Assembly (NCBI RefSeq): GCF_946151065.1
Contig: NZ_CAMGZA010000001.1
Coordinates: forward strand, 558,001-622,000
Length of the DNA: 64,000 nucleotides
Source of the DNA: Microbacterium sp. Marseille-Q6965
GTDB lineage: Bacteria; Actinomycetota; Actinomycetes; Actinomycetales; Microbacteriaceae
Reading direction: 5' to 3'
Shown: positions 34,766-49,283 of the stretch, piece by piece
Layout: the number at the start of each line of letters is the position of its first letter
Position numbering within the stretch: position 1 is the first letter of the stretch
Translations under genes and position numbers: made by a program
Notes under the pieces: model-generated
What the model saw: only the letters and a program-made list of their open reading frames with translations
Database searches by the model: none
Told to the model about the DNA's origin: nothing

Positions 34766-34831
34766 GCCGCCGACGCTACGCAGGTGCTCGTCGCACGTTC
34801 AAGCGTCTTGAGCGACGTGACAGCGAGTCCC

Positions 34832-36031
34832 TCAGGCCGCGTGGCGGGGCGCGACGCTCTCGGTGCGCGCGGCGCGGTCGTACTCGTAGACGGTGCGCCC
34901 GTCGATCAGGACGCGCGCGGGCCGCGCCATGACGTCGAGCGGCTCGCCGTTCCACACCACGAGGTCCGCACGCTTACCCGGCTCGATCGATCCGACCTCC
35001 GCATCCACGCCGAGCACACGCGCCGGATTGATCGTGATCGCCTCGATCGCCGTGCGCTCGTCGAGCCCTTCGCGCACGGCGAGCGACGCCTGGTGCACGA
35101 GGAAGTTGATGGGGATGACCGGGTGGTCGGTGATGATCGAGATCTCGACACCCGCCTGGGCGAGCTTGCCGGGGTTCGCGATCGAGCGGCCACGCAGCTC
35201 CATCTTCGACTTCGTCGTGAAGAGCGGACCGATGAGCACGGGCACGCCCCGTTCGGCGAGGTAGTCGGCTACGACATGCGCCTCGGTGCCGTGGTCGATC
35301 ACGAGCCGGTAGCCGAACTCGTCGGCCAGCCGCACGGCCGTGACGATGTCGTCGGCCCGGTGGGCGTGCTGGCGCCACGGGATCTCGCCGCGCAGTACCG
35401 CGGCGAGCGCCTCGTGCGTGAGGTCGACCTCGGCGGGCTTGCCCTCCTCCGCGGCCTCGTGCTTGCGCATGTAGTTCTGGGCGGCGACGAACGCCTCGCG
35501 GATGATCTTGGCGTTGCCGAGGCGCGTGGAGGGCGTCTGCTTCTTCTCGCCGTAGACACGCTTCGGGTTCTCGCCGAGGGCGGACTTCACGCCGGCGGGC
35601 GCGCGCAGCACCATGCGGTCGACGATCCGCCCGTGGGTGCGCAGCACGGTGGCCTGGCCGCCGATCGGGTTGCCCGAACCGGGGTTCACGCCCACGGTGG
35701 TCACGCCGCCGGCGAGGGCGACGTCGAAGCCCTCGTCGAACGGATCGATCGCATCGATGGTGCGCACGGCCGCCTGGTTCGGGCCGGTCATCTCGTTCGT
35801 GTCGCTCGCGCCGGGGCCATCGCCCTCCGGGTGCACGCCGAGGTGCACGTGCGCGTCGACGAGCCCCGGCGTGACGGTCGCGCCACTCAGGTCGAGCACC
35901 TCCGCGCCCTCGGGGACCGCGACGTCCGCCCCCGCCGCGGCGATACGACCATCGTCACCCACCACGATCGTGCCGTCGTAGGGCTCCCCCACCACGGGGA
36001 TCACGTGCGCGTTCGTCAGGGCAAGGGTCAT
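34832..36031 (-). CDS. amidohydrolase (imidazolonepropionase-like)
   Basis: A 399-residue metal-dependent hydrolase of the amidohydrolase superfamily. The metal site is visible as VDAHVHLG (about residues 58-65), HAHRADDI, IDHGTEAH and the ITDHPVIP aspartate. Family relatives cleave cyclic amides such as imidazolonepropionate or act on peptides; the hut genes are not nearby, so the annotation stays general. ATG at 36031 has GGAGGA upstream. No signal peptide, so it is cytoplasmic. Confidence 0.92.
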   Translation of the reverse strand: MTLALTNAHVIPVVGEPYDGTIVVGDDGRIAAAGADVAVPEGAEVLDLSGATVTPGLVDAHVHLGVHPEGDGPGASDTNEMTGPNQAAVRTIDAIDPFDEGFDVALAGGVTTVGVNPGSGNPIGGQATVLRTHGRIVDRMVLRAPAGVKSALGENPKRVYGEKKQTPSTRLGNAKIIREAFVAAQNYMRKHEAAEEGKPAEVDLTHEALAAVLRGEIPWRQHAHRADDIVTAVRLADEFGYRLVIDHGTEAHVVADYLAERGVPVLIGPLFTTKSKMELRGRSIANPGKLAQAGVEISIITDHPVIPINFLVHQASLAVREGLDERTAIEAITINPARVLGVDAEVGSIEPGKRADLVVWNGEPLDVMARPARVLIDGRTVYEYDRAARTESVAPRHAA

Positions 36032-36161
36032 CGGATTCCTCCATCGACAGCGAGTGCGGGCGGGCAGCGAGTTTCGGGCCGCGGCGGCGACGCGCCGCGC
36101 CTGAGCGCCCCCGCCCATCCTGTCACCCGCGCCGCGGGCATCCCCGCCGCGTGGCCGCGCG

Positions 36162-37064
36162 TCAGCGCAGCCCGAGAGCGTCGGCGACTCGGATGACCTC
36201 CGCGAGATCCTCCCCGGACAGCCCACGGATCGGCAACGGAAGGCACCCGGGCGGCACGAGCCCCCGGTGCTCGGCGATCGCGGCGATCACCCGGAGGCTG
36301 CCGCCGTGCCTGCCGAACAGCTCCCACAGCGGCGCGAGCCGGTCGGACTCGGCGCGCGCCGCCTCCGCGTCGTCGCCCGCCGCGGCGTCGGAGATGCGCA
36401 GCGCCGCCTCGGGCAGGGTGCCGGCGATGACCGAGTACCAGGCGTCGCATCCGGCGAGCAGGCCGCCCGCGGCGGACGCGTCGCCCGAGACCCCGACCGT
36501 CACGTGCGGCGGGAGCACGGCCCGGATCGTCGCCACGTGCGCCCGCGCCGCGAACGGCTCCGTCGGCACGCCGGGGATCTTGATCGACGCGATCCCGGGC
36601 AGCTGCGCGATGCGCCCGTACAGCTCGTTCGTGAAGGTGAACCGAGTGGTGCTGGGATTGTCGTAGACGATGACGGGCAGCGTCGTGCGCTCGGAGACGG
36701 CGCGGAACAGCTCGAACACGTCGTCGTCCGTGAGGGGCAGGTACGTCATCGGCGCAAGCAACACGCCCGCCGCTCCGGCGTCCTCCGCCGCGGCGACGTT
36801 GCGCAGCACGTGCGAGGTCCGCAGCGCTCCGACGCCCACGAACACCGGCTTGTCCCCCGCCCGCTCCACGGCGATCCGTGCCGCGCGGGAACGCTCGTCC
36901 GTGTCGAGGTACGCGTACGCCCCGGTGGAGCCGAGCGCCGTGATGGAATCGACGTCGGATGCCGCGAGGCGCTCCACGAGCCCCGCGAAGGCGACCTCGT
37001 CCACGCGGTCGTCGCGCAACGGTGTGAGCGGGAACGCGCTGAGGCCGCGGAAGGGTCCGGTCAT
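36162..37064 (-). CDS. dihydrodipicolinate synthase family aldolase (DapA-like)
   Basis: A 300-residue class I aldolase of the DapA/NAL family. The Schiff-base lysine lies in IASIKIPGVP, the proton-relay tyrosine in LPVIVYDNPSTTRF, and the pyruvate-binding loop reads ALGSTGAYAYLDTDER, where DapA itself has GTTGE. This departure suggests a catabolic aldolase or lyase instead of lysine synthesis. ATG at 37064 has GGAGG upstream; a GTG at 37082 is possible but unsupported. It lies 130 bases downstream-facing from the amidohydrolase, same strand, and may be co-transcribed with it. Confidence 0.9.
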   Translation of the reverse strand: MTGPFRGLSAFPLTPLRDDRVDEVAFAGLVERLAASDVDSITALGSTGAYAYLDTDERSRAARIAVERAGDKPVFVGVGALRTSHVLRNVAAAEDAGAAGVLLAPMTYLPLTDDDVFELFRAVSERTTLPVIVYDNPSTTRFTFTNELYGRIAQLPGIASIKIPGVPTEPFAARAHVATIRAVLPPHVTVGVSGDASAAGGLLAGCDAWYSVIAGTLPEAALRISDAAAGDDAEAARAESDRLAPLWELFGRHGGSLRVIAAIAEHRGLVPPGCLPLPIRGLSGEDLAEVIRVADALGLR

Positions 37065-37188
37065 CCCCTCATCCTCCCGCACCCGTCGCGGATGCGCTCA
37101 GCCCGGGAGCCTCCACGTTCGCTCAGCGGAGCGAGGCGATCACCTGCGTTGCCGCCCGCGCCGATCCGTCGCTCGAGCGGCTCACCCC

Positions 37189-37216
37189 GACCCGGCGTCG
37201 TGGGTGCTGCCGGGTC
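37189..37216 (-). terminator. short GC-rich hairpin after the small membrane-protein gene
   Basis: GACCCGGC at 37189-37196 pairs with 37209-37216 around a 12-base loop, about 58 bases past the stop of the membrane protein gene on the minus strand and upstream of the DapA-like gene. A terminator is plausible; the stem is only 8 bp. Confidence 0.4.
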
Positions 37217-37273
37217 ACGGCGCCCCCTGGCGCGGGGCGTCCGCCGCCGCCGTGCGCCAGACCTGATCCGCCT

Positions 37274-37675
37274 TCAGCGCTTCCGGCGCCGGCGCACATC
37301 GCGGACGATGAGCACGACCGCGCCCGGCCCGAAGAATCCGAGAGCGAGGATGCCGGCGGGCAGCGCCATGCCGCCGCCGGGCTCGAGCAGGGGCGCGGCG
37401 GCAAGGTGCCCGACGATCAGCAGCAGCCCCGTCACGGCGAAGCAGATCGATCCGGCGATGCCCACCCAGGCGGGTAGCCCGGCCCCTGGCCGCACCGCCT
37501 GCGCGAACCCGACGAGCGCGCAGCCCCCGAACAGGACGACCGACATCAGGCCCAACAAGGTGTCGCCGCCGACCATCAGCAGGGCGCCCATGCCGACGAA
37601 GGCCAGCCCGATGACGGTCAGCAGGATCCCCTGCCGCCGCTCCCCGCGAAGGTTGTCATCCTGCGCGCCACTCAC
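37274..37675 (-). CDS. small membrane protein with four predicted helices
   Basis: A 133-residue protein with hydrophobic stretches at about 16-36, 40-62, 69-89 and 101-121, a charged N-terminus (DDNLRGERRQ) and an Arg/Lys-rich C-terminal tail that should face the cytoplasm. I recognise no family. GTG at 37675 is six bases after TAGCCT, the leaderless pattern, and no other start fits. It is a single gene between a possible terminator and the VOC-protein gene. Confidence 0.75.
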   Translation of the reverse strand: MSGAQDDNLRGERRQGILLTVIGLAFVGMGALLMVGGDTLLGLMSVVLFGGCALVGFAQAVRPGAGLPAWVGIAGSICFAVTGLLLIVGHLAAAPLLEPGGGMALPAGILALGFFGPGAVVLIVRDVRRRRKR

Positions 37676-37742
37676 GCCGCGAGGCTACAGCGTCGAGCGA
37701 GGCAGGAGCCCCGAGGCGCGCTCGGAGCTCCTGGCCGTCGCG

Positions 37743-38198
37743 TCAGGCGGCGCGACTCGAGGCGACGTCGACGCTCCAGGTGACGCCGAACGCGTCGGTC
37801 AGCATGCCGAAGCCCGCGCTCCACTCCGACGCCGCGAGCGGCTCGATGATCGTCGCGCCGTCCGCGAGCTTGTCCCAGTACCCGCGCGCCTCGTCGAGCG
37901 AGTCGGCGCGCACGGACAGGAAGAAGGGGGCCTCCGTGTGGGTCATCCCGTGCTCGCGGGTGGTGCGGCCGGCGAAGGGCTCCGAGCGGCCGGGGATGTC
38001 GTACGCCATCACGCGGAAGCCGTTGTCGGCCTGCACCGAGCCGAAGACGACCTTGCCGGCGTCGGGAGCGTCCTGCGGCATGCCGAGCTCGCCGTAGGTG
38101 GTGACGTGGATGTGCCCGCCGAAGACGCCCTGATAGAAGGTGAGCGCCTCGCGCGCCGTGCCGGGCAGGTTGAGGTGGGTGGTGGTGGAAAGGGACAT
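37743..38198 (-). CDS. VOC/PhnB-like metalloenzyme-fold protein
   Basis: A 151-residue protein of the glyoxalase/PhnB group (THLNLPGTAREALTFYQGVFGGHI at the start, GVTWSVDVAS at the end). PhnB-like proteins often lack a complete metal site and have no settled activity. ATG at 38198 has GAGGAG upstream. It is divergent from a WYL-domain regulator with a 9-bp inverted repeat between the two genes, an arrangement that suggests the regulator controls it. Confidence 0.88.
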   Translation of the reverse strand: MSLSTTTHLNLPGTAREALTFYQGVFGGHIHVTTYGELGMPQDAPDAGKVVFGSVQADNGFRVMAYDIPGRSEPFAGRTTREHGMTHTEAPFFLSVRADSLDEARGYWDKLADGATIIEPLAASEWSAGFGMLTDAFGVTWSVDVASSRAA

Positions 38199-38257
38199 GT
38201 GTGTCGCTCCTCGTGATCGGTCCGGCGCGTCTCGCCGTCCTCGCGATCATCGCGAAG

Positions 38258-38282
38258 GTAGAGGACAGCGGAAGTCCTCTAC
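38258..38282. promoter_or_regulatory. 9-bp inverted repeat between the VOC gene and the WYL regulator
   Basis: GTAGAGGAC (38258-38266) and GTCCTCTAC (38274-38282) are exact reverse complements around a seven-base spacer, 18 bases before the regulator's ATG. Arm length and spacing fit a dimeric helix-turn-helix protein, most likely the WYL regulator itself. Confidence 0.55.
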
Positions 38283-38299
38283 TGCGAGAGACTGGGGTC

Positions 38300-39256
38300 A
38301 TGGAGACCACCGCCCGCATGCTCACGCTGCTGTCGCTGCTCCAGGTGCCGCGCGACTGGCCGGGCCGGACGCTAGCCGACCGGCTGGGCGTCACGACGCG
38401 AACGGTGCGGCGGGACGTGGACCGGCTGCGCGAACTCGGCTACCGGATCCACGCGCTGAAGGGGCCGGACGGTGGCTACCGGCTGCAGGCCGGCGCCGAA
38501 CTGCCGCCGCTGCGCTTCGACGACGAGCAGGCCGTCGCCATCGCGATCGCGCTGCGCAGCGCCGCGGCGACCGGTGTCGGCATCGAGGAAGCCGCGCAGC
38601 GTGCCCTCGCCACCGTGCAGCAGGTCATGCCGTCGCACCTGCGGCACCGCATCGACGGCGTCCGCTTCGAGGACAACGCACCCCCGCCGTCGGTTGCCGC
38701 CGAGGTGCTCGAAGCGGTGAGCGAGGCCGTGCGGCGCGGCATGACCCTGCGCTTCGATTACGGCGAAGCGGACGGACCGCCGCGCCGCACCGAGCCGCAC
38801 GGACTCGTCGCCCAGGGCGGACGCTGGTACCTGGTCGCGTGGGACCTCGACCGGGAGGACTGGCGCATCTTCCGTCTGGATTGCCTCGCGCCGCGCCGCC
38901 CCATCGGACCCGCGTTCGCGTCGCGTCCGGTGCCGACGGGCGATCCGCGATCGTTCGTGTCCGCGCGCTTCAAGGGCGCGACGAACGCTGATGCGTGGCC
39001 GTGCGTGGGGACCGTGGAGATCGATCTGCCGGCGCGGCACGTAACCCCCTGGATCCACGACGGCGAGGTCGAGCCGATCGGTCCCGGCAGCACCCGCGTG
39101 AGGACCGGATCCTGGTCGTGGACGGGCCTGCTGGCCTCGATCCTGCGCTTCGACGCCGCCTTCCGCATCGTCGGCCCCGAGGAGCTCATCGTCGCGGCCC
39201 AGCGGATGGAGCGCCGCGTGCGCGAGGCCTCGCTGCCGGCGAGCGAGAGCCGCTGA
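38300..39256 (+). CDS. HTH and WYL-domain transcriptional regulator (YafY type)
   Basis: A 318-residue regulator. Residues 1-55 are the DeoR-like winged helix (TLADRLGVTTRTVRRDVDRLRELGYRI), and residues about 135-235 hold the WYL domain (RTEPHGLVAQGGRWYLVAWDLDREDWRIFRLDCL), followed by the WCX C-terminal extension. WYL domains bind nucleic-acid or nucleotide ligands in several regulators. ATG at 38300 begins the conserved fold; a longer open frame upstream covers the operator. Probably autoregulated and acting on the divergent VOC gene. Confidence 0.92.
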   Translation: METTARMLTLLSLLQVPRDWPGRTLADRLGVTTRTVRRDVDRLRELGYRIHALKGPDGGYRLQAGAELPPLRFDDEQAVAIAIALRSAAATGVGIEEAAQRALATVQQVMPSHLRHRIDGVRFEDNAPPPSVAAEVLEAVSEAVRRGMTLRFDYGEADGPPRRTEPHGLVAQGGRWYLVAWDLDREDWRIFRLDCLAPRRPIGPAFASRPVPTGDPRSFVSARFKGATNADAWPCVGTVEIDLPARHVTPWIHDGEVEPIGPGSTRVRTGSWSWTGLLASILRFDAAFRIVGPEELIVAAQRMERRVREASLPASESR

Positions 39257-39317
39257 GCACGCGCACCCCGCGGTTGCATGCGTGTGCGCGGCGGTAGCGG
39301 CCGATAGGGTCGGGACC

Positions 39318-39593
39318 ATGGCGAATGAGAAGCGCCCGGCACGGATGATCCCGGCCAAGGACGTGCTCGAGGGTCGCTGGACGGGCGACGGGTACCCGTT
39401 CCGCTATGTGGTCGTCTGGCACAGCAAGGAACTCGTGGCGCGGTACCGGAACCAGATGATGGATACCGTGCTGTCGGCCGTCGAGGTGCTGGAGGGTCGG
39501 GGCTGGGAACTCGTCAGCGTCGATGAGGCGGTGAGTCTCGCCTGTCTGCGGCGGATCACCCCCGGGGCGCGGCCGCCGCTCCCGCAGCGCTGA
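39318..39593 (+). CDS. hypothetical protein, 91 residues
   Basis: A small basic protein. The middle, FRYVVVWHSKELVARYRNQMMDTVLSAVEVLEGRGWELVSVDEAV, predicts a strand-helix-strand fold of the kind found in many short DUF4177-like proteins, but I cannot assign it with certainty. No membrane segment. ATG at 39318 follows TAGGGT by seven bases with no Shine-Dalgarno site. It is convergent with the YjaB-like gene and separated from it by 21 bases. Confidence 0.7.
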   Translation: MANEKRPARMIPAKDVLEGRWTGDGYPFRYVVVWHSKELVARYRNQMMDTVLSAVEVLEGRGWELVSVDEAVSLACLRRITPGARPPLPQR

Positions 39594-39614
39594 GGCCTCG
39601 GACGCTCTGCACGG

Positions 39615-40064
39615 TCATCCGTCGGCGCGACCGGTGAGACGCATGTGCAACAGGGGGTACGGCCAGCCTTCGCCGTCCACGGCGCTCCTGCCCGTCACGG
39701 CGAAGCCTGCATGGGCATAGAAGCCCACCGCCTGCTCGTTCTGTTCGTTGACGTCCACGGCGTTCACGCCGTTCTCCGCGATGACGTGCTTCAGCAGCAT
39801 CCGACCGATTCCCGCGCCGCGGCTCTGCGCGTGGACGAACAGCATCTCGAGCTTGCCCTCGTCCGTGCCGGCGAACCCCACCGGCGCCCCGTCACGCTCG
39901 GCGACCACCAGGCTCACGTGGGGCAGGTAGTCCTTCGCCAGGCGCCGCTCGATCGCCGCGAAGTGCTCCTTGGCGAGGAAATCATGGGTGGCGATGACGG
40001 CGCTTCGCCAGATCTCCACGAGCGCGGGGTACTCCTCTTCGCCGCGTGAGTGCCGGATCAGCAC
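39615..40064 (-). CDS. GNAT N-acetyltransferase, YjaB-like
   Basis: A 149-residue acetyltransferase closely patterned on E. coli YjaB: EIWRSAVIATHDFLAKEHF at the start and VDVNEQNEQAVGFYAHAGFAVTGRSAVDGEGWPYPLL at the end. The acetyl-CoA loop is SRGAGIGRM (R/Q-x2-G-x-G/A). The acceptor is not established. GTG at 40064 gives the family length and has AAGGA a few bases upstream; GTG at 40076 or 40082, seven bases or less after TAGCAT, would extend it by four or six residues. Confidence 0.88.
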   Translation of the reverse strand: MLIRHSRGEEEYPALVEIWRSAVIATHDFLAKEHFAAIERRLAKDYLPHVSLVVAERDGAPVGFAGTDEGKLEMLFVHAQSRGAGIGRMLLKHVIAENGVNAVDVNEQNEQAVGFYAHAGFAVTGRSAVDGEGWPYPLLHMRLTGRADG

Positions 40065-40125
40065 TTCGTCCTTCACTTGCACGATGCTACGAGGCGCACG
40101 AGGCTCCGGTGGGCCCGCATTAGGG

Positions 40126-41442
40126 TCACGAGACGCCGGGATCACCCTCGTGACGCTCGTTATCAAAGATCCTCGCGTACTCGGCGTTGGCCGCGTCCCG
40201 CCCCATGAAGCTGTCGGGGATGATGGCGGATCCTGTTTCCTCCTTCAGCAACGAGGAGAGGATCGCGGTCAGCAGAGTGCCTTCATCGCCTTCCGGCTGG
40301 AAGGCGGGTTCCGCGCTCAGCCATTCGAGCAGCACCGGCAGGCCGACCGCGGGGATGCCACCGGGATAGAAGATGTCCTCGATCGTTCCCAAGCCGTCAT
40401 CCTGCGGCATCATCACCACGACCGGCTTCACGTCGAGGCTCAGCCCCGACCGCTTCAAGCGCGTCGCGAATCGCTCCGCGGCCATCCGCATGTTGTGGCT
40501 CATCTCGCGAGCGCGGGGGCCGACATAGCCCCCGGTCTGCCGGTCGATGGCGCACAAGAACGGGGTTCCGTCCGCTTGGTGGTCCACCCTCCAGATGACG
40601 CCTCCTTGGCGGTAGTTCTTCACATCCACCAGCCAGAGCGTCGAGCCGGTCGCGAGGACGCAGTCGACGTCGGTCTGGAAGACCGCGCTCGCCCCGATCG
40701 CTTCGTCGGGCATGTGCACCGACCAGAACGAGGCGAAGCGCTCGTGCAGTCCGCGCATCTGGAGCGCCTTGGCGAGGTTCAGCTCCCCCTCCTGACCCCG
40801 CTTCACGCGCGCTTCCTCGAAGCCTGAGCCGCTCAGCCCCGCACCGGGCTCGCCGTGCATGTGCGCAGGTCGCACGAGCGTGATCGCTTCGAGGACTCGA
40901 GGCTCGTAGCCGGTCATCTCCCCCGGCGCACTCGCCCTCTCGGTCGCGTTCTTGAGGCGCTCGACCTCCGCGGCGTATGCGAGCTCCGCACGCCGCGCCC
41001 TCGTGACGGCCTCCTGCTCCGCCGCCGCGCGCTCGTGCATCAGCTGATCGGCATAGGCGTCCCAGCGCGCGTTCTCGCGCTGGCGCCGCTCGAGCGGCAC
41101 GACGACGAGCAGTGCCAGGCCGAGGGCAGCCCATACCCACTGCAGTGCGACCACAGTGCCCATGCCCGCCGCGGGGGTGCCGGCGACAATCCCCGCAAAC
41201 AGCAACGTCATGAGCACGTTGATGGCCACCAGGAGCAGATAGGGGACGAGGCTCCAGAGCAAAGGAGGCCCCACCAGGAGAAGCACGGTCGTGGCGGAGC
41301 CCACGATCACTCCGGGGACCGCCATGCCGTCCCCCGCCCTCATCCAGAGCTGGTCGAGGATCACCGTCGTCAGCGCGATCGCCGCGGACAGCGCGACTCG
41401 AAGGACGAGCACGAACGGACGGCGCCGGGTGCGGGGGGTCAT
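40126..41442 (-). CDS. membrane-anchored NERD-domain (nuclease-related) protein
   Basis: A 438-residue protein. Four hydrophobic helices fill residues 10-115, followed by a charged coiled coil (about 118-165, rich in Arg, Glu and Ala). The NERD domain begins at KRGQEGELNLAKAL and contains VFQTDVDCVLATGSTLWLVDVKNYRQG, where E, D and DxK match the PD-(D/E)xK-type catalytic set. The last 150 residues are unrecognised. Domain order suggests a nuclease held at the inner membrane. ATG at 41442 overlaps the stop of the small gene upstream (ATGA), forming a two-gene operon. Confidence 0.88.
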   Translation of the reverse strand: MTPRTRRRPFVLVLRVALSAAIALTTVILDQLWMRAGDGMAVPGVIVGSATTVLLLVGPPLLWSLVPYLLLVAINVLMTLLFAGIVAGTPAAGMGTVVALQWVWAALGLALLVVVPLERRQRENARWDAYADQLMHERAAAEQEAVTRARRAELAYAAEVERLKNATERASAPGEMTGYEPRVLEAITLVRPAHMHGEPGAGLSGSGFEEARVKRGQEGELNLAKALQMRGLHERFASFWSVHMPDEAIGASAVFQTDVDCVLATGSTLWLVDVKNYRQGGVIWRVDHQADGTPFLCAIDRQTGGYVGPRAREMSHNMRMAAERFATRLKRSGLSLDVKPVVVMMPQDDGLGTIEDIFYPGGIPAVGLPVLLEWLSAEPAFQPEGDEGTLLTAILSSLLKEETGSAIIPDSFMGRDAANAEYARIFDNERHEGDPGVS

Positions 41443-41804
41443 CGGGCCGTCTCAGCGGCATACCAGCGGTCGAAGACCTCCGCCGTGATCCGCGCGAGTT
41501 CGTCGAGGCCCTCCACGCCGACCTTCTCGGTCTTCGGCCCGATGGCCCAGCCGTCCGTATAACCCTTGGCGAGATAGGCGCCCTCGATGCCGACCCTGTA
41601 CGGGCTGGATCCTTCTCGGTCGAACTCCAGCTTCACATCGATGTTCTGTTCGGCCTCACAGGTCACCGTCTGCAGCCGCCCGAAGGTGGCCTCGCCGCTG
41701 CGAGCATAAAGAAGCTCGAGGAATCGCGAAGCGTCGTGGCGGATCTCGGCGGCGAGCGCGCGCGTCACCATGGGTTCGGTGGTGTAGATCGGTGAATGCT
41801 GCAT
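41439..41804 (-). CDS. hypothetical protein, first gene of the NERD operon
   Basis: A 121-residue soluble protein (TRALAAEIRHDASRFLELLYARSGEATFGRLQTVTCEAEQNIDVKLEF, then a Gly/Tyr stretch and a helical C-terminus ending FDRWYAAETAR). I recognise no family. One cysteine, no signal peptide. Its start codon lies inside the palindrome GAATGC-T-GCATTC (41794-41806). It is coupled to the NERD protein by ATGA and should act with it. Divergent from the HTH-ECF fusion gene. Confidence 0.75.
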   Translation of the reverse strand: MQHSPIYTTEPMVTRALAAEIRHDASRFLELLYARSGEATFGRLQTVTCEAEQNIDVKLEFDREGSSPYRVGIEGAYLAKGYTDGWAIGPKTEKVGVEGLDELARITAEVFDRWYAAETAR

Positions 41805-41806
41805 TC
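41794..41806. promoter_or_regulatory. palindrome over the start codon of the NERD operon
   Basis: GAATGC, a central T and GCATTC form a perfect 13-base palindrome that includes the start codon of the first NERD-operon gene. Binding or RNA folding here would control translation or transcription of the operon. Function is inferred. Confidence 0.4.
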
Positions 41807-41818
41807 CACCAATCGTGG

Positions 41819-41850
41819 CCGCCCGACGCGCCGAACCGCGCGTCGGGCGG
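41819..41850. promoter_or_regulatory. 13-bp inverted repeat between NERD operon and HTH-ECF gene
   Basis: Bases 41819-41831 pair perfectly with 41838-41850 around a six-base loop. Both flanking genes start away from this point, so it is not a terminator for either. It is a candidate operator for the DNA-binding domain encoded next to it, or a folded 5' leader. A TAGTCT box at 41899-41904 could be the -10 of the HTH-ECF gene. Confidence 0.5.
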
Positions 41851-41950
41851 TGGCCCTCCGCCGTTTTGGAACAACTCTGGACAGCGCGGCAGCTTCAGTA
41901 GTCTGAGCATCGCGATCAGACAGTGGGCGTGCCACCGATACGGGAGGGGA

Positions 41951-43021
41951 ATGATGACGCGCGAGAGGCAGCCCGGGACCGCTTCGGAGCTCATGTCCCC
42001 CGGCCCCTTCGATGAGATCGCCCGCGACCTGCAGACGCTCCGGGAGCAGGCCGGTCCGGTCTCCTACGCCGAACTCGTGCGTCGCATCACGGAACGCCGG
42101 CTGGAGCGCGGGATCCGCCCCGCAGCGGCCGCCCCGGCGCGCTCGACGGTGTACAACGCGTTCCGCACCGGCAGAGCGCGGCTCGACGCCGACCTGCTGC
42201 GCGACATCGTGCTCTGCCTGGGCGCGTCGGACGAGGAGGCGCAAGCGTGGGTGCGGCGCAGCCAGGCAGCGCGCAGGGCGGCTGAAGCCCACCGTCGAGG
42301 CGCCGGTGACGCCGCGACACAGCTGCCTTCCGCCCCCGACCTCGCCGATCGCGGCCCCGCGGCGCTCCCCTCCGCCGCCATGCTGCTGTTCCTGCTGTGC
42401 GCGGTGGCCGTGAACCTCCTCGGCCTCTTTGTCGCGGGGCTCTTTCGGCTCACCGTCTACCTCGACATGGTGGGCACGGCGATCGCCTCTCTCGTCCTCG
42501 GGCCCTGGCACGGCGCCGCGGTCGCCGTCGCGACGAACAGCCTGGGGTTTCTCACGGGAGATCTCCACACCCTCCCATTCACTCCCGTGAACGTGATCGG
42601 CGCTCTCGTGTGGGGCTACGCCGTCCGTCGCCTCGACCTGGGAGCCAGCCTCTCCCGCTTCGTCTCGCTGAACGTGCTCACGGCCCTCGCATGCTCTCTC
42701 GTCGCGGCCCCCATCGTCGTCGCGGCGTTCCACGGCGGGCACGGCCACGCGTCCGAGCAGGCGGTGCTTTCCCTGGAGGCGCTGCAGGTCCCGTTCGTGG
42801 CCTCGGTGTTTGCCGCCAACGTGGTCACGTCGATCGTGGACAAGCTCCTCTCGGGCTTCATCGCCCTTCTCGCGTTCACGCTGCTCCACGGCGTGCTGCG
42901 GGTACCGGCGGCGCACATGCCGCTGGTTCAGAGGCTCGCTGCCCTTCGGACGACGAGCAGCGATCGTCGCTGGCACCATCGGCCCCAAGCGGCACTCCGC
43001 GGCCTGCGCTCATCGGGTTGA
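41951..43021 (+). CDS. DNA-binding domain fused to ECF-transporter S-component-like membrane domain
   Basis: A 356-residue two-part protein. Residues 1-110 are soluble and helical: SYAELVRRITERRLERGI, then RSTVYNAFRTGRARLDADLLRDIVLCLGASDEEAQAWVRR, a helix-turn-helix layout common in streptomycete-type regulators. Residues 140-325 hold six hydrophobic helices with the pattern of ECF S components (YLDMVGTAIASLVLGPWHGAAVAV, then LPFTPVNVIGALVWGYAVRR). No ECF ATPase or T component is near. It looks like a membrane-tethered regulator that may sense a small molecule through the S domain. Start ATG 41951 or 41954, with GGGAGGGG upstream. Confidence 0.8.
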   Translation: MMTRERQPGTASELMSPGPFDEIARDLQTLREQAGPVSYAELVRRITERRLERGIRPAAAAPARSTVYNAFRTGRARLDADLLRDIVLCLGASDEEAQAWVRRSQAARRAAEAHRRGAGDAATQLPSAPDLADRGPAALPSAAMLLFLLCAVAVNLLGLFVAGLFRLTVYLDMVGTAIASLVLGPWHGAAVAVATNSLGFLTGDLHTLPFTPVNVIGALVWGYAVRRLDLGASLSRFVSLNVLTALACSLVAAPIVVAAFHGGHGHASEQAVLSLEALQVPFVASVFAANVVTSIVDKLLSGFIALLAFTLLHGVLRVPAAHMPLVQRLAALRTTSSDRRWHHRPQAALRGLRSSG

Positions 43022-43609
43022 TCGCGTCCGCCACGCGTCGGCTGCGGCCGGCGAGGTGTAGTGCGCGTAGATGGTGCCGTTGGCGAACACCCGGTGCTCG
43101 ACGAGGCGAAGATCCAGCTGCGCCCCCTCGGGCAGCGCGCTCACGCCCCCGCCGATCGTCTGCGGGACGATGAAGAACCGGTAGTCGTTGACCACGCCCG
43201 CCCGGATCGCGGCGGCGGCCGTCGTGGGTCCGAAGATCTCGACCTCGCCCGCGGCATCGTGCACGATCTGCTCCAGCTCGGCGAGTCCGAGCCGCCGGAC
43301 GAGGCGAGCGCCATCGGCGGCGACGGCGCCCTGCTCCAGCGTCGAGGACGCGGCCACCCGGTCCAGCCCTCTCCACCGCCGCGCGAACTCGTGCTCGTCG
43401 GGGCTCCACGACCCGTCGTCCGGATCGGTGAGCCAGTACCGCATCAGCTCGTAGGTGCGCCGGCCCAGCACCTCCGTCGACACCGCCGACATCCGCTCGA
43501 CGTGGAAGCGGAAGACCTCATCGCTCGGAGTCGACCACCCGAAGTCGCCGCTCGCGTCGGCCACGTAGCCGTCGAGCGAGACGGTCGCGGTGAAACTGAG
43601 GGTGCCCAT
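43010..43609 (-). CDS. dihydrofolate-reductase-like protein (RibD C-terminal family)
   Basis: A 199-residue protein of the RibD_C/YyaP-YwjB group. Landmarks are FTATVSLDGYVAD at the N-terminus, VLGRRTYELMRYW, and EIFGPTTAAAAIRAGVVNDYRFFIVPQTIGGG near the C-terminus. These proteins resemble NADPH-dependent reductases, but substrates are mostly unknown. ATG at 43609 starts the conserved first strand; a longer frame upstream lacks homology. Its last 12 bases overlap the end of the convergent HTH-ECF gene. Confidence 0.88.
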   Translation of the reverse strand: MGTLSFTATVSLDGYVADASGDFGWSTPSDEVFRFHVERMSAVSTEVLGRRTYELMRYWLTDPDDGSWSPDEHEFARRWRGLDRVAASSTLEQGAVAADGARLVRRLGLAELEQIVHDAAGEVEIFGPTTAAAAIRAGVVNDYRFFIVPQTIGGGVSALPEGAQLDLRLVEHRVFANGTIYAHYTSPAAADAWRTRSTR

Positions 43610-43676
43610 GAGCACATCGTGGCCGCGAACCCGCGGCGACACAACGGCCCGCGGTGCCGCTCGGTGCCGACGGCTG

Positions 43677-44336
43677 TCAGGACCGGCTCTCGAGCTCCGC
43701 GTCGATCCGGGGGTCGCGGAGCACCCACACCTCGCCCTCGGTCGCGCCGGCCGGCGGGTCGACGCGCTGCAGGCCGAGCTTCTCGATCAGCGTCAGGAGC
43801 GCCGCGCGATCCGCCCGCGGCTCCGCCAGCGTGTGACTGTCGAAGAACACGTAGTACCGATCGCTCGGGTCGATGTATCCAGCATCGTGCCAGATGGCGA
43901 GGACCTCGTCGAGCGCCTCGCGTTCGGTCGAGGCGGCGGCGGCGCGCCGCTCGCCGCGATCCTCCGGCGAGGCGTCGAGCTCCGCGGCCTCGGCGTACCA
44001 CTCCCCGAGGAACGACAGCCCGTCGAAGCCGCCCTCGAAGAACCGCATGGCGAAGGCGCCGAACCGGTTCGCTGGTTCCACACGCGAGTATTCGGTCCGC
44101 GCGTCCTCACCTCCGCGGATCCGCACGGCGACTCCGCTGCCGAGCATCAGCGCGAGCCCCTCCTCCGCGGCCGGATCCTCGATCGAGAGCATCGTCGCCC
44201 CGTCGGCCCGCAGCTCATCGAAGAAGGCACGGAAGGCGTCATACGCCTGCTGGGCGTCGTCGGCGGAGCACTGCTGCTCCCGGCCGCCGCCGTCGCCCAA
44301 GAGGAACTGCCTCGGACCCGGTTCGTATCGCCTCAT
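43677..44336 (-). CDS. hypothetical acidic protein, 219 residues
   Basis: A soluble protein with no signal peptide. Visible stretches are DAQQAYDAFRAFFDELRADGATMLSIED, a Gly-rich strand region (MLGSGVAVRIRGGEDARTEYSRVEPANRFGAFAMRFFEGGFDGLSFLGEWY) and a C-terminal helical part with DRYYVFFDSHTLAEPRADR. I do not recognise the family. ATG at 44336 is preferred over one at 44399 because it starts a compositionally normal protein. It is divergent from the response-regulator gene; 157 bases lie between the starts. Confidence 0.75.
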   Translation of the reverse strand: MRRYEPGPRQFLLGDGGGREQQCSADDAQQAYDAFRAFFDELRADGATMLSIEDPAAEEGLALMLGSGVAVRIRGGEDARTEYSRVEPANRFGAFAMRFFEGGFDGLSFLGEWYAEAAELDASPEDRGERRAAAASTEREALDEVLAIWHDAGYIDPSDRYYVFFDSHTLAEPRADRAALLTLIEKLGLQRVDPPAGATEGEVWVLRDPRIDAELESRS

Positions 44337-44453
44337 CACGTCGCCTCGCCTTCTCCTCGCCCCCGCCCGCCTGGGGACTGCGCGTTCGTATCGTCGCATT
44401 CGCGGCCCGCCGCGGTCACCCCCGCGCCGGATCCGCGCGACGCATCACACGTG

Positions 44454-44470
44454 CTTCAGCCCGGGTTCAG
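44454..44470 (+). promoter_or_regulatory. two TTCAG direct repeats before the response-regulator gene
   Basis: CTTCAG (44454-44459) and GTTCAG (44465-44470) are spaced by 11 bases, one helical turn, and lie just upstream of CACACT (44482-44487), a candidate -10 six bases before the ATG. OmpR-type regulators bind tandem repeats with this spacing. The same box recurs three times on the same strand in front of the PepSY-like gene, so this is a likely autoregulation site. Confidence 0.55.
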
Positions 44471-44493
44471 CGCTTCTCCGCCACACTGGGCGC

Positions 44494-45171
44494 ATGCGGA
44501 TCCTGGTGGTCGATGACGAGGAGCGTCTCGCGGAGGGCGTGCGGCGCGGTCTCGAGGCCGAGGGATTCGCCGTGGACGTCGCACACAACGGCGTGGATGG
44601 GCTGTGGCGCGCACGCGAGACGGCGTACGACGCGATCGCGCTCGATCTGATGATGCCGGGCATGAGCGGCTGGAAGGTCTGCGCGGCCCTGCGCGCCGAG
44701 GGCAATTGGACGCCCGTGCTCATGCTCACGGCGAAGGACGGCGAGTGGGATCAGCTGGAGGCGTTCGAGAACGGGGCCGACGACTACGTGACGAAGCCCT
44801 TCTCGTTCGCGGTGCTCGTCGCGCGGCTGCGCGCCCTGATCCGCCGCGGCGCGGTCGAGCGGCCCGTCGTACACGAGGCGGGCGACCTGCGCGTCGACCC
44901 CGCCTCTCATCGCGTCTGGCGCGGCGACACCGAGATCCCCGTCACGGCGCGCGAGTTCGCCGTGCTCGAGCACCTCATCCGGCATCGGGGCGACGTCGTG
45001 TCCAAGCGCGACCTGATCGCCGGGGTCTGGAACGACGACTTCGAGGGAGATCCGAACATCGTCGAGGTGTACGTGGGTCATCTGCGCCGCAAGCTCGACC
45101 GGCCCTTCGACCGGGCGGCGATCGAGACGATCCGCGGGGTCGGCTATCGTCTGGCGGCCGATGGCGGCTAA
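44494..45171 (+). CDS. OmpR/PhoB family response regulator
   Basis: A 225-residue two-domain regulator. The receiver domain (1-115) has the acidic pocket VVDDEE, the phospho-acceptor aspartate in LDLMMPGMSG (about residue 51) and the lysine in VTKPFS. The C-terminal winged helix (125-223) ends with VYVGHLRRKLDRPF and IETIRGVGYRLA. ATG at 44494 follows CACACT by six bases. It overlaps the histidine kinase gene by 11 bases and probably controls both itself and the secreted PepSY-like protein downstream of the kinase. Confidence 0.96.
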   Translation: MRILVVDDEERLAEGVRRGLEAEGFAVDVAHNGVDGLWRARETAYDAIALDLMMPGMSGWKVCAALRAEGNWTPVLMLTAKDGEWDQLEAFENGADDYVTKPFSFAVLVARLRALIRRGAVERPVVHEAGDLRVDPASHRVWRGDTEIPVTAREFAVLEHLIRHRGDVVSKRDLIAGVWNDDFEGDPNIVEVYVGHLRRKLDRPFDRAAIETIRGVGYRLAADGG

Positions 45172-46486
45172 ACGGGCATGGGGGTCGGTGCGCGCGCGAA
45201 CGACGCTCGGCGCGACGATCGTGGTGGCGGTGGCGCTGGCCGTGGGCGCGGTCGCGTTCTTCTTCGTCTTGCGTGGGAACGTGCTCGCGACGGCGGAGCG
45301 TGGCGCGGAGACCCGCGCCGAGCAGCTCGTCTCGGCGGTCGAGTCGGACGGCGTCGACGCAGTGTCGGGGCTGGACGACGAGCTCGTGCAGGTCGTGGAC
45401 GGTGCCGGCACCGTGCTCGCCGCCGCAGAAGACGCGCAAGGCCTGCGGCTGCCGCCGGTCGATGATCCCGCGGTCGTGATGCTCGACGACGACGCCGTGC
45501 TGCTCGTCTCCGAGAGCGTCGAGAGCGGGGGCGGCACGGGTGGCGCCGGCCACGTCGTCGTGGGCATTCCGATCGACGACGAACTCGAAACCCTCGCCAC
45601 GGTCGCGGTCATGCTCGCCGTCGCCGTGCCCGTCGTCGTCGCGCTCGTCGCCGCGACAACCTGGATCGTCACGGGGCGTGCGCTGCGCCCCGTCACGCGA
45701 ATCCGCCGCGAGGTCGACGGCATCACCGCCGAGCACCTGGAACGGCGGGTGCCCGTGCCCGAATCCTCCGACGAGATCGCGGCGCTCGCACGCACGATGA
45801 ACGCCATGCTGGATCGGCTGGACCGCTCCGCGCGGGCGCAGCGTGCCTTCGTCTCTGACGCCTCTCACGAGCTGCGTTCGCCGCTCGCGACGATCCGTCA
45901 GCACGCGGAGCTCGCCCAGGCGCACCCCGGGATCACGTCGGTGACCGAGCTGGCCGAGGTCGTGCACGAGGAGGGGCTGCGCCTGCAGGGCATCGTCGAC
46001 GCGCTGCTGCTGCTCGCCCGCCTCAGCGAGGGCGCCGAGGAGGCGGCGGAGACCGTCGATGTCGACGACCTGGCTCTCGCCGAGGCCGCGCGACTGCGCG
46101 CGCAGGGCCTTCACGTCGACGCGTCCGGCATCGGGGCGGCGCGCGTGACCGGGAGCGGGCGGCTGATGGCCCAGCTGCTGCGGAACCTCTGCGACAACGC
46201 CTCCCGGCACGCGGCGGGTCGCATCGCGATCTCGACCCGACAGCACGGCGGCCGGGTGGTGTTGACGGTGGAGGATGACGGATCGGGCATCCCGGCGGCC
46301 GAACGTGAGCGGGTGTTCGAGCGCTTCGTGCGCCTCGACGAGGCCCGCGCGCGCGATGCCGGCGGGAGCGGGCTCGGCCTCGCGATCGTGCAGGGGATCG
46401 CCACGGCACACGGCGGCACCGCGGCGGTGGACGAGTCCCGCTGGGGCGGCGCGCGTTTCACCATGACGCTCCCGGCGGCGTCCTGA
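45161..46486 (+). CDS. sensor histidine kinase
   Basis: A 441-residue EnvZ/CusS-like kinase. Helix 1 spans about 18-40, an extracytoplasmic acidic sensor domain (45-140) has many Asp/Glu/Gly residues, helix 2 spans about 145-170, followed by a HAMP domain (GRALRPVTRIRREVD), the H-box FVSDASHELRSPLATIR with the phosphorylated histidine, N-box LCDNASRHA and G-boxes DDGSGIP and GGSGLGLAIV. Complete and likely active. The acidic sensor region and the acidic PepSY-like partner suggest a cation or envelope signal, unproved. Confidence 0.95.
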   Translation: MAAKRAWGSVRARTTLGATIVVAVALAVGAVAFFFVLRGNVLATAERGAETRAEQLVSAVESDGVDAVSGLDDELVQVVDGAGTVLAAAEDAQGLRLPPVDDPAVVMLDDDAVLLVSESVESGGGTGGAGHVVVGIPIDDELETLATVAVMLAVAVPVVVALVAATTWIVTGRALRPVTRIRREVDGITAEHLERRVPVPESSDEIAALARTMNAMLDRLDRSARAQRAFVSDASHELRSPLATIRQHAELAQAHPGITSVTELAEVVHEEGLRLQGIVDALLLLARLSEGAEEAAETVDVDDLALAEAARLRAQGLHVDASGIGAARVTGSGRLMAQLLRNLCDNASRHAAGRIAISTRQHGGRVVLTVEDDGSGIPAAERERVFERFVRLDEARARDAGGSGLGLAIVQGIATAHGGTAAVDESRWGGARFTMTLPAAS

Positions 46487-46519
46487 AGAGGTCTTCAGGA
46501 CGCTTCAGACCCGCTTCAG
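46483..46519 (+). promoter_or_regulatory. cluster of four CTTCAG boxes before the PepSY-like gene
   Basis: CTTCAG occurs at 46493-46498, 46503-46508 and 46514-46519 on the plus strand with steps of 10 and 11 bases, and once inverted at 46483-46488. The inverted pair forms TCCTGAAG-AGGT-CTTCAGGA (46481-46500), which overlaps the kinase stop codon. The array lies 24 bases upstream of the next ATG. Likely high-affinity binding site of the adjacent response regulator. Confidence 0.6.
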
Positions 46520-46542
46520 CACCCTCGATGCACCATCGGATC

Positions 46543-47286
46543 ATGAGCGATCACGACAACACACCCCAGACTCACGCCAGCCCCGAGCCGGCCACTCCGG
46601 CGACGACCGAACCCGCCGTCGAGCGGGCTTCCGCACCGACGAAACCGCGCCGCAAGCGCGGCCTGTGGATCGCCGGCGGCGTGGTCGCCGCCGCGCTGCT
46701 CGCCGGCGGCGGCGTCGCGGCCGGCGCGGCGCTCGCCGACGTCGACGACGACGATGACGATCACGTGGCCAGCTCCTCGCAGGAGGGCGACGCGGGGTCG
46801 GCGGACGATGACCGCGACGGTGACGACCGCGACGGGGCCGACTCGAACGACTCCGCCGCGGCTGCGACGCCCTACGGCAGTGACACCGCGCCGGCGATCG
46901 TCGACATCGCCGAGGCGGCGCGTGCCGCAGCCGAGGGCGACGTCGTGAGCATCGACGCCGAGCGCGACGGCACGTGGGAGGTGCAGCTCGAGACCGCCGC
47001 GGGCGACGAGTCGGAGGTGCGCGTCACGCCCGACGGCACCGCCGAGGTCGTCGCCACGGAGGCGGCCGACGGCGACGACCGCACCCCCGAGCACGTGCTC
47101 GACGCCGACACGATCACCTCGCTCGTGGAGGCGGCGCTCGCCGACACGGAGGGCACGATCATCGAGCTCGGCAGCGACGACGGGCGCACGCCGTACGACG
47201 TCACCGTGCTCACGGGCGACGGCCGCACGGTCGAGCTCGACCTCACCACCGACTTCGCGATCGAGTCGCGCGACACCGACGACTGA
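46543..47286 (+). CDS. membrane-anchored acidic PepSY-like protein
   Basis: A 247-residue protein. A Pro/Thr-rich cytoplasmic N-terminus (1-40) ends in KPRRKRG, one transmembrane helix follows (about 44-66), then a run of Asp residues and an acidic Ser/Asp linker. The C-terminal 150 residues look like two PepSY-type repeats (EGDVVSIDAERDGTWEVQLETAAGDESEVRVTPDG and EGTIIELGSDDGRTPYDVTVLTGDGRTVEL). Topology places this part outside the cell. It is probably induced by the two-component system upstream through the CTTCAG boxes. An ATG at 46528 is the alternative start. Confidence 0.78.
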   Translation: MSDHDNTPQTHASPEPATPATTEPAVERASAPTKPRRKRGLWIAGGVVAAALLAGGGVAAGAALADVDDDDDDHVASSSQEGDAGSADDDRDGDDRDGADSNDSAAAATPYGSDTAPAIVDIAEAARAAAEGDVVSIDAERDGTWEVQLETAAGDESEVRVTPDGTAEVVATEAADGDDRTPEHVLDADTITSLVEAALADTEGTIIELGSDDGRTPYDVTVLTGDGRTVELDLTTDFAIESRDTDD

Positions 47287-47297
47287 TCCGCGGACAC

Positions 47298-47333
47298 GAC
47301 GAGGGGCTGGTGTCGTGGCACCGGCCCCTCGTC
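47298..47333 (+). terminator. long hairpin terminator after the PepSY-like gene
   Basis: GACGAGGGGC at 47298-47307 pairs perfectly with 47324-47333, and the inner bases continue the stem with wobble pairs to a four-base loop. It lies between convergent genes and can stop transcription of both. Confidence 0.75.
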
Positions 47334-47379
47334 TCGTTCAGCGCTCGTTCGCTGCTTCCCATCCCGGACCGTCAGGGGT

Positions 47380-48084
47380 TCAGCGACGCCGGCCCCCGGC
47401 GAGCGCGAAGTCGACCGCGGCGGCGGCGTGCAGGGTCGTCGAGGCGAAGACGGGGACGGACACGTCCTCCTCCCCGATCAGCAGCTCGATCTCGGTGCAC
47501 CCGAGGATGACGCCCTCGGCTCCCTCGGCGACGCCGTCCTCGATGATGCCGCGGAACGCCTGCCGAGACTCGTCGCTCACGACGCCGAGCACGAGCTCGT
47601 CGTAGATCACCCGGTTCACCGTCGCCCGCCCGTCTGCGTTGGGGACGATGGTCTGCACCGCGTTCGCGTCCATCCGCTCGCGGTAGAACGCCTCCTCCAT
47701 CGTGAAGCGGGTACCGAGCAGCAGGACCTTCGACAGCCCGGCCTCCAGGATCGCCTCCCCGGTGACGTCGACGAGATGGAGGAACGGGACGCCGACCGCG
47801 TTCTCGATGTGGCCCGACACCTTGTGCATCGTGTTCGTGCAGAGCACGATGAGCTCGGCGCCGGCCGCCTCCAACGAGCGCGCCTCTCGCGCGAGCAACT
47901 CTCCTGCGGCCGCCCATTCGCCCGCGGTCTGCATGCGCTCGATCTCGGCGAAGTCCACGGACCCCATGACGCAACGCGCCGAGTGCAGACCGCCGAGGCG
48001 ATCCCGCACGCCCTCGTTGATCAGTCGGTAGTAGAGAGCAGAGCTCTCCCAGCTCATCCCGCCGATGAGGCCGATCTTCTTCAC
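47380..48084 (-). CDS. aspartate/glutamate racemase family protein
   Basis: A 234-residue cofactor-free racemase with both catalytic cysteines: LCTNTMHK (about residue 82) and LGCTEIELL (about residue 194). The start KKIGLIGGMSWESSALYYRLIN is typical of the YgeA-like amino-acid racemases. Substrate may be aspartate, glutamate or a broad set. GTG at 48084 is six bases after TAGCGT, the leaderless pattern. The small acidic-protein gene lies just upstream on the same strand. Confidence 0.92.
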   Translation of the reverse strand: MKKIGLIGGMSWESSALYYRLINEGVRDRLGGLHSARCVMGSVDFAEIERMQTAGEWAAAGELLAREARSLEAAGAELIVLCTNTMHKVSGHIENAVGVPFLHLVDVTGEAILEAGLSKVLLLGTRFTMEEAFYRERMDANAVQTIVPNADGRATVNRVIYDELVLGVVSDESRQAFRGIIEDGVAEGAEGVILGCTEIELLIGEEDVSVPVFASTTLHAAAAVDFALAGGRRR

Positions 48085-48111
48085 GGCACGACGCTATCGC
48101 GCCCAAGCCCG

Positions 48112-48285
48112 CTAATCGGCGTCGGCGCCATCACCCGAATCGATCGCGCTCGGCTCGCGGTCCTCGACCACGGCGGCCGTCACCGTCTCCGTCGTCCCAC
48201 CGGCGCGCAGGTGCGCCTCGCGCAGCGCGCGCTCGATCGCAAGGTCGATCGGCGATCCCGGCTCAATGTGCTCTTCGCTCGACAT
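48112..48285 (-). CDS. small acidic protein, 57 residues
   Basis: A 57-codon ORF with strongly GC-biased third positions and a clear GGAGG site five bases before the ATG at 48285. The product is helical in the middle (SPIDLAIERALREAHLRAGGTTETVTAAVVED) and ends in an acidic tail. No cysteine, signal peptide or membrane segment. I recognise no family. It precedes the racemase gene by 27 bases on the same strand. Confidence 0.65.
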   Translation of the reverse strand: MSSEEHIEPGSPIDLAIERALREAHLRAGGTTETVTAAVVEDREPSAIDSGDGADAD

Positions 48286-48331
48286 GGCGCCTCCTGCGCC
48301 TCACGGTACTCTCACGCCCGCGAACTCGCCC

Positions 48332-48373: not shown

Positions 48374-48424
48374 GCGTTCCGCGTGGGGTGCGCCATCCGA
48401 GCAGGGGCACGTTCGTCCGGGGCG

Positions 48425-49216: not shown

Positions 49217-49251
49217 CTCGTCCGTTCCCGCGGCGGCGCCCCGCGTACCGA

Positions 49252-49269: not shown

Positions 49270-49283
49270 ACCCTAGACCACGT

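Follow-up and report, generated by a model that had tools for sequence, protein, structure and literature searches.

An XRE-type helix-turn-helix joined to an ECF S-component fold: a proposed membrane-embedded regulator in Microbacterium and its candidate tandem-repeat operator

The S components, the substrate-binding membrane subunits of energy-coupling factor (ECF) transporters, have one fold in common with the 5TMR histidine kinases, and many output domains are listed for it by Partipilo and Slotboom (PMC11109136), whose main text never uses the words HTH, helix-turn-helix, DNA-binding or transcription. Transmembrane transcription regulators are described as common in a survey (PMC10269533), in the main text of which ‘ECF’ does not occur. 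As a receptor, the S-component fold is thus already known in histidine kinases, while a version with a helix-turn-helix (HTH) domain is apparently undescribed; in the open literature, subscription papers and supplements aside, no description of an HTH/S-component fusion was found. Here, such a fusion gene is analysed in a stretch of 64,000 nucleotides (the window) from Microbacterium sp. Marseille-Q6965 (GCF_946151065.1, contig NZ_CAMGZA010000001.1, positions 558,001 to 622,000). Its product is probably a membrane-embedded one-component transcription regulator, with a former importer subunit as its receptor. Loci, genomes and families carry our own numbers (L, G and f).

The membrane half of the fusion protein was identified by profiles and by structure. 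Residues 150–310 matched the NCBIfam model of CD3073-family S components (NF045596) with E = 2.6e-20 and 72.8 bits, below the cut-off of 180 bits. This cut-off separates little, since the seven stand-alone relatives tested also fall below it (89.5–114.2 bits, E 1.9e-25 to 5.1e-33). Pfam ECF_trnsprt gave E 0.017, under its cut-off, and a nine-sequence profile of the fusion family found the FolT structure 5d0y at E 0.0022. An AlphaFold2 model was obtained with a mean pLDDT (per-residue confidence) of 82 and a pTM (predicted template modelling score) of 0.56. In this model, residues of about 140–318 were aligned by VIA-align with TmRibU at Z 15.4 (3.0 Å over 157 residues), followed by ThiT (Z 13.3), FolT (12.6) and BioY (12.4), which gives the protein the six-helix S-component fold. 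Foldseek returned nothing below E 0.001 for the model, its top match being TmRibU at 0.0052.

For residues of about 17–112, the matches were XRE-type repressors with middling Z scores (3f6w 7.1, C.BclI 7.1, lambda repressor 6.8), and the alignments to 3f6w and C.BclI span 74–80 residues at 4.4–4.5 Å. No Pfam HTH model reached E 1 on the fusion protein, so the HTH call for the window's protein rests on the fold and on homologues. In two related NB-ARC proteins (see below) HTH_31 was matched under its cut-off, with E 6.9e-5 (L047) and 3.2e-4 (L087). By predicted fold and homology, the window gene encodes an XRE-type HTH joined to an ECF S-component fold, so that a single polypeptide combines a DNA-binding domain with transmembrane helices. 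A sequence-only reading that preceded this work had placed both domains in this one protein and proposed a comparison with BioY/RibU-type and XRE/HTH folds; the NF045596 profile, the AlphaFold2 model and the structure matches to RibU, ThiT, FolT, BioY and XRE/lambda-type repressors bear this out.

The fusion recurs across several actinobacterial families. Some portion of it was matched in 40 of 297 genomes of the order, and full-length fusions besides that of the window were found in six of this sample (G205, G289, G181, G218, G272, G029), on one Herbiconiux contig and on one Nocardioides contig. A sample of the class, searched with a single protein as query, gave matches at E 1e-6 in 12 of 197 genomes, with fusions among them in G453, G386, G341 and G470. 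The full-length fusions span at least five families (f1, f6, f7, f12, f45). Denser sampling gave a match at E 1e-25 or better for 40 out of 295 genomes from the window's genus and, at E 1e-30 or better, for 36 out of 147 from a second genus, the presence of both domains being checked for part of these. Alignment of nine fusions, without L046 where the gene is cut at the contig end, revealed 34 invariant positions. The HTH half holds 16 (among them T66, F71, R72, G74, R75 and R77) and the membrane half 18 (including N155, D172, G175, T176, D297 and K298).

The first clue to a DNA target came from reading the upstream regions, in which the word CCGGACA recurred. De novo motif discovery in 13 upstream regions of 385 bp each gave a direct tandem repeat with a 10-bp period, NYYCCGRACR-NYYCCGRACR. 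The log-likelihood of this motif was 75.6 versus a mean of 55.8 (sd 2.7, maximum 61.8) in 100 dinucleotide shuffles, none of which reached the real score. In a leave-one-out scan, the motif was trained without a locus and then scanned over that entire locus. In 9 of 14 loci, no more than 250 bp separated the highest-scoring site of the locus from the fusion gene as called. The site in the window, our candidate operator, came second among 127,962 positions. L031 has its top site about 0.8 kb upstream, preceding a short lipoprotein-like open reading frame (ORF); that of L041 lies 3.4 kb upstream, where it heads what looks like an operon of four genes with the regulator as the last. The upstream site of L043 came ninth; L046, cut by the contig end, had none and was counted as a miss. 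The apparent operon of L041 (5264-9516) has a strong tandem repeat at its head and encodes a TPR-like protein of 625 residues, a DUF2510 and a DUF349 protein and then the fusion regulator. L040, a close relative, lacks these three cargo genes, and its repeat stands immediately ahead of the regulator.

From 11 sites a sequence-only model, R1, was built. L041, being close to L040, was kept out of the motif discovery, yet its site is part of R1; the sites of L089 and L090 were excluded from the motif model. Over the window, R1 scored the candidate operator best with 12.6 bits and the next position with 6.6, the site itself belonging to the training set. The features of the locus are listed in Table 1.

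Table 1. Features of the fusion gene, its candidate operator and the divergent operon (window positions).
Feature	Position	Strand	Basis
HTH/S-component fusion gene, 356 residues, proposed membrane-embedded one-component regulator	41951..43021	+	ORF; full-length fusions in other genera and families
XRE-type helix-turn-helix domain, residues 17-112	41999..42286	+	AlphaFold2 model, VIA-align matches to XRE repressors, homologues
Six-helix ECF S-component fold, residues 140-318	42368..42904	+	NF045596, TmRibU/ThiT/FolT structure matches, 5d0y profile match
Candidate operator, tandem 10-bp direct repeat TTTTGGAACA ACTCTGGACA	41864..41883	.	Leave-one-out scan, model R1
Perfect 13-bp inverted repeat, 6-bp loop, in presumed 5' leader of the NERD operon	41819-41831/41838-41850	.	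Repeat search
121-residue protein, first gene of divergent operon, possible target	41439..41804	-	No Pfam match up to E 1
Membrane-anchored NERD (nuclease-related domain) protein, second operon gene, possible target	40126..41442	-	PF08378

Applied to 48 unseen loci, R1 found a site of at least 12.5 bits in 21 (14/24 in one genus and 7/24 in the window's genus), with E 0.012 or less within searches of about 94 kb. Short matches (L175, L177, L178) were left out of the one-genus run and L203–L206 out of the window-genus run, as were loci seen before in both. For three of the 21 sites (L154, L191, L193) the DNA can be aligned across the repeat with that of training sites. The remaining 18 cannot be so aligned and cluster by DNA similarity among themselves into about 13 groups, L165–L168 and L172 being alignable among themselves in part, as is L164 with L174. 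The site of L163 lies about 0.55 kb upstream; all others are within about 250 bp of the regulator match, upstream or downstream according to the locus. Relative to the gene, the repeat is found in either orientation, both among the training loci and among the new ones, which argues against a mere promoter element.

As controls, five regions around other NERD genes (76 kb) gave at best 8.7 bits, and eight of the 13 stand-alone S-component loci fetched (91.5 kb) at best 9.0 bits. At the genome scale, the best site was found beside the gene or heading its apparent operon in 9 of 13 genomes with the gene, and those nine sites trained the model. Away from the regulator, six sites of at least 14.5 bits were present in 4 of the 13 genomes, versus none in 13 genomes without the gene; between 14.0 and 14.5 bits the counts were four versus two (14.4 and 14.2). 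A large regulon was considered and rejected, as R1 found few strong extra sites and most genomes overlap the gene-free controls. The other candidates of the window's own genome, with 12.5–13.0 bits, are at the background level of the control genomes and were dropped.

The repeat is also found near some genes with the same type of HTH. The first 110 or so residues of the fusion recur in large proteins, which in 13 of 15 loci match NB-ARC over the Pfam cut-off; in L083 the match is below it, and L082 has other STAND-type matches. Identity of the HTH between a fusion and the N-terminal side of an NB-ARC protein amounts to 45% for L008/L047 and 51% for L009/L048. Sites were found in four of the 15 loci, none of which R1 had been trained on. 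That of L085 (1429-1450) scores 17.6 bits and lies some 54 bp ahead of the HTH; L084 (1312-1333) has 15.8 bits and L087 a weaker 12.5 bits. In L048 (9596-9618) the site scores 14.6 bits and precedes by 92 bp a neighbouring gene with an exported-protein start. Their E values are 0.00024–0.0023 for three loci and 0.011 for the fourth. Because the repeat follows the HTH across two architectures, though in a minority of the second, it is probably this HTH that reads it. In L047, by eye, a gene for an exported protein similar in appearance to that of L048 adjoins the NB-ARC gene.

An unrooted phylogenetic tree placed the S domains of 13 fusions and those of 13 stand-alone actinobacterial S components on opposite sides of one branch with support 99/98, L044 standing on a long branch. 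The stand-alone set (12 loci and that of G272) was chosen by hand from genome matches with the S domain only. In 11 of the 13 loci (L065, L139–L145, L147–L149) a Pfam-identified inosine-uridine nucleoside hydrolase gene lies within about 4.5 kb of the stand-alone S gene, and L138 and L146 showed none by eye. The S gene of G272 adjoins an EcfT gene according to Pfam, and by eye some others seem to do so as well. These neighbours hint at the substrate of an orphan ECF family and suggest nucleoside-type substrates for the stand-alone branch, whereas the sequence-only reading had proposed a vitamin or a metal as what the fusion senses. A nucleoside as ligand of the fusion regulator itself is a guess, and a rather doubtful one, because the fused branch is separate. 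Queuosine salvage is reported to pair ECF S components with nucleoside hydrolases (PMC11130926), which makes modified nucleosides candidates too.

In ThiT, according to PMC11109136, an AXXXA motif of helix 1 holds EcfT, and this motif is absent from the 5TMR histidine kinases. All 13 stand-alone proteins carry a proline six residues before the invariant N155, versus none of the 13 fused ones; two positions before N155 the residue is small in 13/13 stand-alone proteins and bulky in 8/13 fused proteins. The sequence-only reading had reported no ECF ATPase or T subunit nearby, and this holds: there is none among the ORFs around the fusion gene, and of the three CbiQ/EcfT matches in the genome a single one is on this contig, at a distance of about 700 kb. 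As no ECF genes lie alongside and an HTH is attached, the S domain is more likely a receptor than a transporter.

In the mechanism proposed, the protein would remain membrane-bound, and its C-terminal domain would be an ECF S component that has become a receptor. The membrane topology is inferred from known S-component structures: six helices, a pocket for the substrate presumably close to the outer face, and the N-terminal XRE-type HTH hanging in the cytosol. Several copies would line up head to tail on the direct repeats, in the window on the candidate operator, and the 10-bp spacing, one helical turn, would bring all copies onto the same face of the DNA. Sensing of a ligand, perhaps a nucleoside, by the S domain would alter this assembly of HTHs. 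The regulator would act on its own promoter and on genes next to it, in the window plausibly the operon of the 121-residue and NERD proteins, elsewhere often genes of exported proteins. More tentatively, we suggest that the fusions could form a new class of receptor-regulators of the Actinomycetes, in which a nucleoside-importer-type S component is the sensor, movement of this sensor in the membrane, driven by the ligand, allows head-to-tail HTH assembly on 10-bp tandem operators, and the pair of HTH and operator also belongs to NB-ARC proteins. If true, one DNA-reading module would be coupled to two very different sensors.

Several observations weigh against a regulator acting through this repeat and against a receptor role in the window. 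No site of 12.5 bits is present in 27 of the 48 unseen loci, and none above 9.0 bits in 11 of the 15 NB-ARC-type loci. The site in the window is the lowest-scoring of the 11 training sites of R1 and only second in a scan of its own genome (12.6 versus 13.0 bits). L179 and L180, which with 61 and 65% identity are the closest to the window's protein, have no site that exceeds 9.5 bits and none that is clear by eye; L181 and L183–L187 were likewise without a site in the R1 run. Outside the regulator locus, the best scores of genomes with and without the regulator mostly overlap. Some sites are downstream of the gene, several of them (among which L089 and L167) with no gene start nearby by our own ORF calls, and these fit simple autoregulation poorly. 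The pTM of the model leaves the mutual placement of the HTH and S domains unfixed. Finally, the window's protein keeps alanines two and four residues before N155 in helix 1, so a loss of EcfT docking is not evident for it.

Across the divergent region, the sequence-only reading had described an operon for a protein without known function and a membrane-anchored NERD nuclease, and this arrangement was recovered, with the NERD gene itself outside the interval 41439–43021 to which that reading referred. The NERD gene matches PF08378 with 28.6 bits (cut-off 22.1, E 2.2e-6), its first 117 residues contain five hydrophobic 19-residue windows, and it overlaps the gene of the 121-residue protein by 4 bp. 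The divergent genes share 146 bp, in which the candidate operator lies 59 bp from the start of the 121-residue protein and 67 bp from that of the regulator. That reading had also pointed to intergenic palindromes as binding sites; one perfect inverted repeat is indeed present. The inverted repeat sits between the candidate operator and the operon start and is possibly a leader hairpin. A consensus scan of the intergenic region found no sigma-70 promoter and no terminator. At the other end of the fusion gene, a gene with a RibD_C domain (window 43010-43642, minus strand) lies tail to tail with it, with a 12-bp overlap at its 3' end.

Conservation of this three-gene locus was not found. Homologues of the NERD and 121-residue proteins stood beside none of 12 fusion relatives, when the window genes of 33000–51000 were compared with the genes around these relatives (less than 1 kb on one side in L031), and beside none of 20 further same-genus loci of 12–13 kb each (0/32). 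In the comparison with the 12 relatives, the shared matches besides the regulator were two enzyme families. NERD relatives are present in 5 of 297 genomes, of which the window's own alone also matches the fusion. Relatives of the 121-residue protein were found on a Clavibacter and a Gordonia plasmid, without an annotated NERD gene beside the Clavibacter one. Because the pairing with the fusion is absent from related loci and genomes, the NERD operon looks like an accessory neighbour of the regulator; the nuclease is here either by coincidence or, at most, as a target confined to this locus. Regulation of the operon in this genome is possible, by one weak site. A conserved pair of regulator and NERD was rejected on these counts. 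A fixed conserved neighbour of any kind was rejected as well: among the 12 loci, close relatives aside, what recurred from one genus to another was limited to common enzyme or ABC families, and in the 20 same-genus loci the clusters consisted of close relatives, common superfamilies or exported proteins.

Three other explanations were weighed against a receptor-regulator. The protein might be a working ECF importer subunit that borrows EcfA and EcfT from elsewhere, with an HTH that is secondary, autoregulatory or vestigial. CbiQ/EcfT-type genes do occur somewhere in all nine fusion genomes tested, the LD-x-x-GT and DK positions are common with the stand-alone, presumably transporting, relatives, and the window's protein keeps alanines in helix 1. 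No ECF gene is near the window gene, though, nor by eye near its relatives; the stand-alone helix-1 proline is missing from every fused protein and the residue at N155-2 is bulky in most; and S-like genes seen by eye beside two of the genome's own EcfT genes suggest dedicated modules. A vestigial HTH would not be expected to hold nearly half of the invariant positions (16/34 in nine fusions). An importer is thus quite unlikely. It is somewhat easier to imagine, though still unlikely, that a different regulator, such as an NB-ARC protein or a global factor, reads the repeat and has the fusion gene as just one of its targets: the same repeat stands near some of the NB-ARC genes that carry this type of HTH, and some sites are downstream of or far from a fusion gene. 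What speaks for the fusion protein as reader is that the repeat goes with HTH genes of two otherwise unrelated architectures, that the control loci tested without this HTH lack it, and that the genome-wide best site is beside the gene or at its operon head in 9/13 genomes, although these nine sites trained the model.

The last explanation is that of the sequence-only reading, a two-part system in which a ligand-gated regulator is dedicated to the NERD nuclease operon, possibly for defence. The candidate operator between the divergent genes and, in one relative (L043), a methylase gene with a restriction-type N-terminus downstream of the fusion speak for such a system. With NERD or 121-residue homologues beside none of the 32 relatives, one genome of 297 holding both, no PADLOC match up to E 1 for the three window proteins, and the motif absent near NERD genes elsewhere (the five control regions), we regard it as very unlikely. 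Defence was also set aside as a candidate because neighbours elsewhere are varied, a number of them with exported-protein starts. What survives of that reading is a recurring HTH/S fusion without an ECF module and a candidate operator in the shared intergenic region; the conserved NERD partner and the defensive role do not. In L043 (5959-8454, G272) the N-6 DNA methylase gene adjoins the fusion gene and lies in a stretch of low GC content at third codon positions with resolvase-like genes.

For the receptor-regulator, the candidate targets are the genes that start near a site. These are the regulator gene itself and, in some loci, genes with signal-peptide-like or lipoprotein starts (L163, L172, L168, L198, L182, L200, L043, L088 and L090, among others), from a survey by our own ORF calls, without statistics, in which many other neighbours have no such start. 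Eight extra sites are found in G181, the five strongest (L122–L125, L135) scoring 17.1, 15.5, 15.4, 14.0 and 13.2 bits and lying in gaps between predicted genes or, for one of them, at the start of a probably over-long ORF. Three of these five are flanked by a gene for a large exported protein with Ig-like and carboxypeptidase-regulatory-like repeats, adjoining a UDP-glucose dehydrogenase gene, and by genes for a glycosyltransferase and a bacterial sugar transferase. This neighbourhood hints at envelope functions or an envelope regulon. In locus L129 (G386 C1:996340-996482), away from the regulator gene, three repeat copies were seen within about 140 bp.

In the literature, the top matches for the words of the repeat look unrelated, judged by title and start of abstract, and the name CD3073 is absent from the matches listed. 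One fusion relative matches the family of NsdA-type regulators weakly (19.8 bits versus 75), and the part consulted of an NsdA paper (PMC12243394) states no DNA motif. Like the NB-ARC (STAND) regulators, the fusions carry a homologous HTH, with the same tandem repeat near 4/15 of the NB-ARC loci; the partners differ, NB-ARC and often TPR parts in those proteins and a membrane S domain here. One module of HTH and operator is possibly common to a membrane receptor and NB-ARC regulators. With the stand-alone CD3073-family S components (NF045596) the fusion shares a homologous membrane domain and conserved positions, and it differs from them by its HTH, the lack of adjoining ECF genes, the lost helix-1 proline and a well-supported separate branch. 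The fusions would also offer a way of finding what an orphan family of S components binds.

The nearest receptors are the 5TMR-LYT sensor histidine kinases such as BtsS and YpdA, which like the fusion have an S-component-fold membrane receptor and a cytosolic output and no ECF motor. Their output is a C-terminal kinase, cyclase or chemotaxis domain, whereas that of the fusion is an N-terminal HTH. By sequence the fusion also resembles the CD3073 S-component model (72.8 bits) more than PF07694 (12.3 bits, short of the cut-off of 24.6), and the Pfam scan of the fusion protein found no kinase domain. Among transmembrane transcription regulators, CadC is a further example. ToxR and BcrR, as presented in the main text of PMC10269533, combine a DNA-binding domain and transmembrane helices in one polypeptide as the fusion does, and unlike them the fusion has the S-component fold as its sensor. 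This fold, recently shown to link transporters and histidine-kinase receptors, would here wire an importer subunit directly to DNA, and the predicted operator makes S-component signalling without a motor an experimentally accessible question. By the features tested, the fusion is set apart from the 5TMR kinases and is not placed among the ECF importers; it would work like a transmembrane transcription regulator and like the receptors built on the S-component fold.

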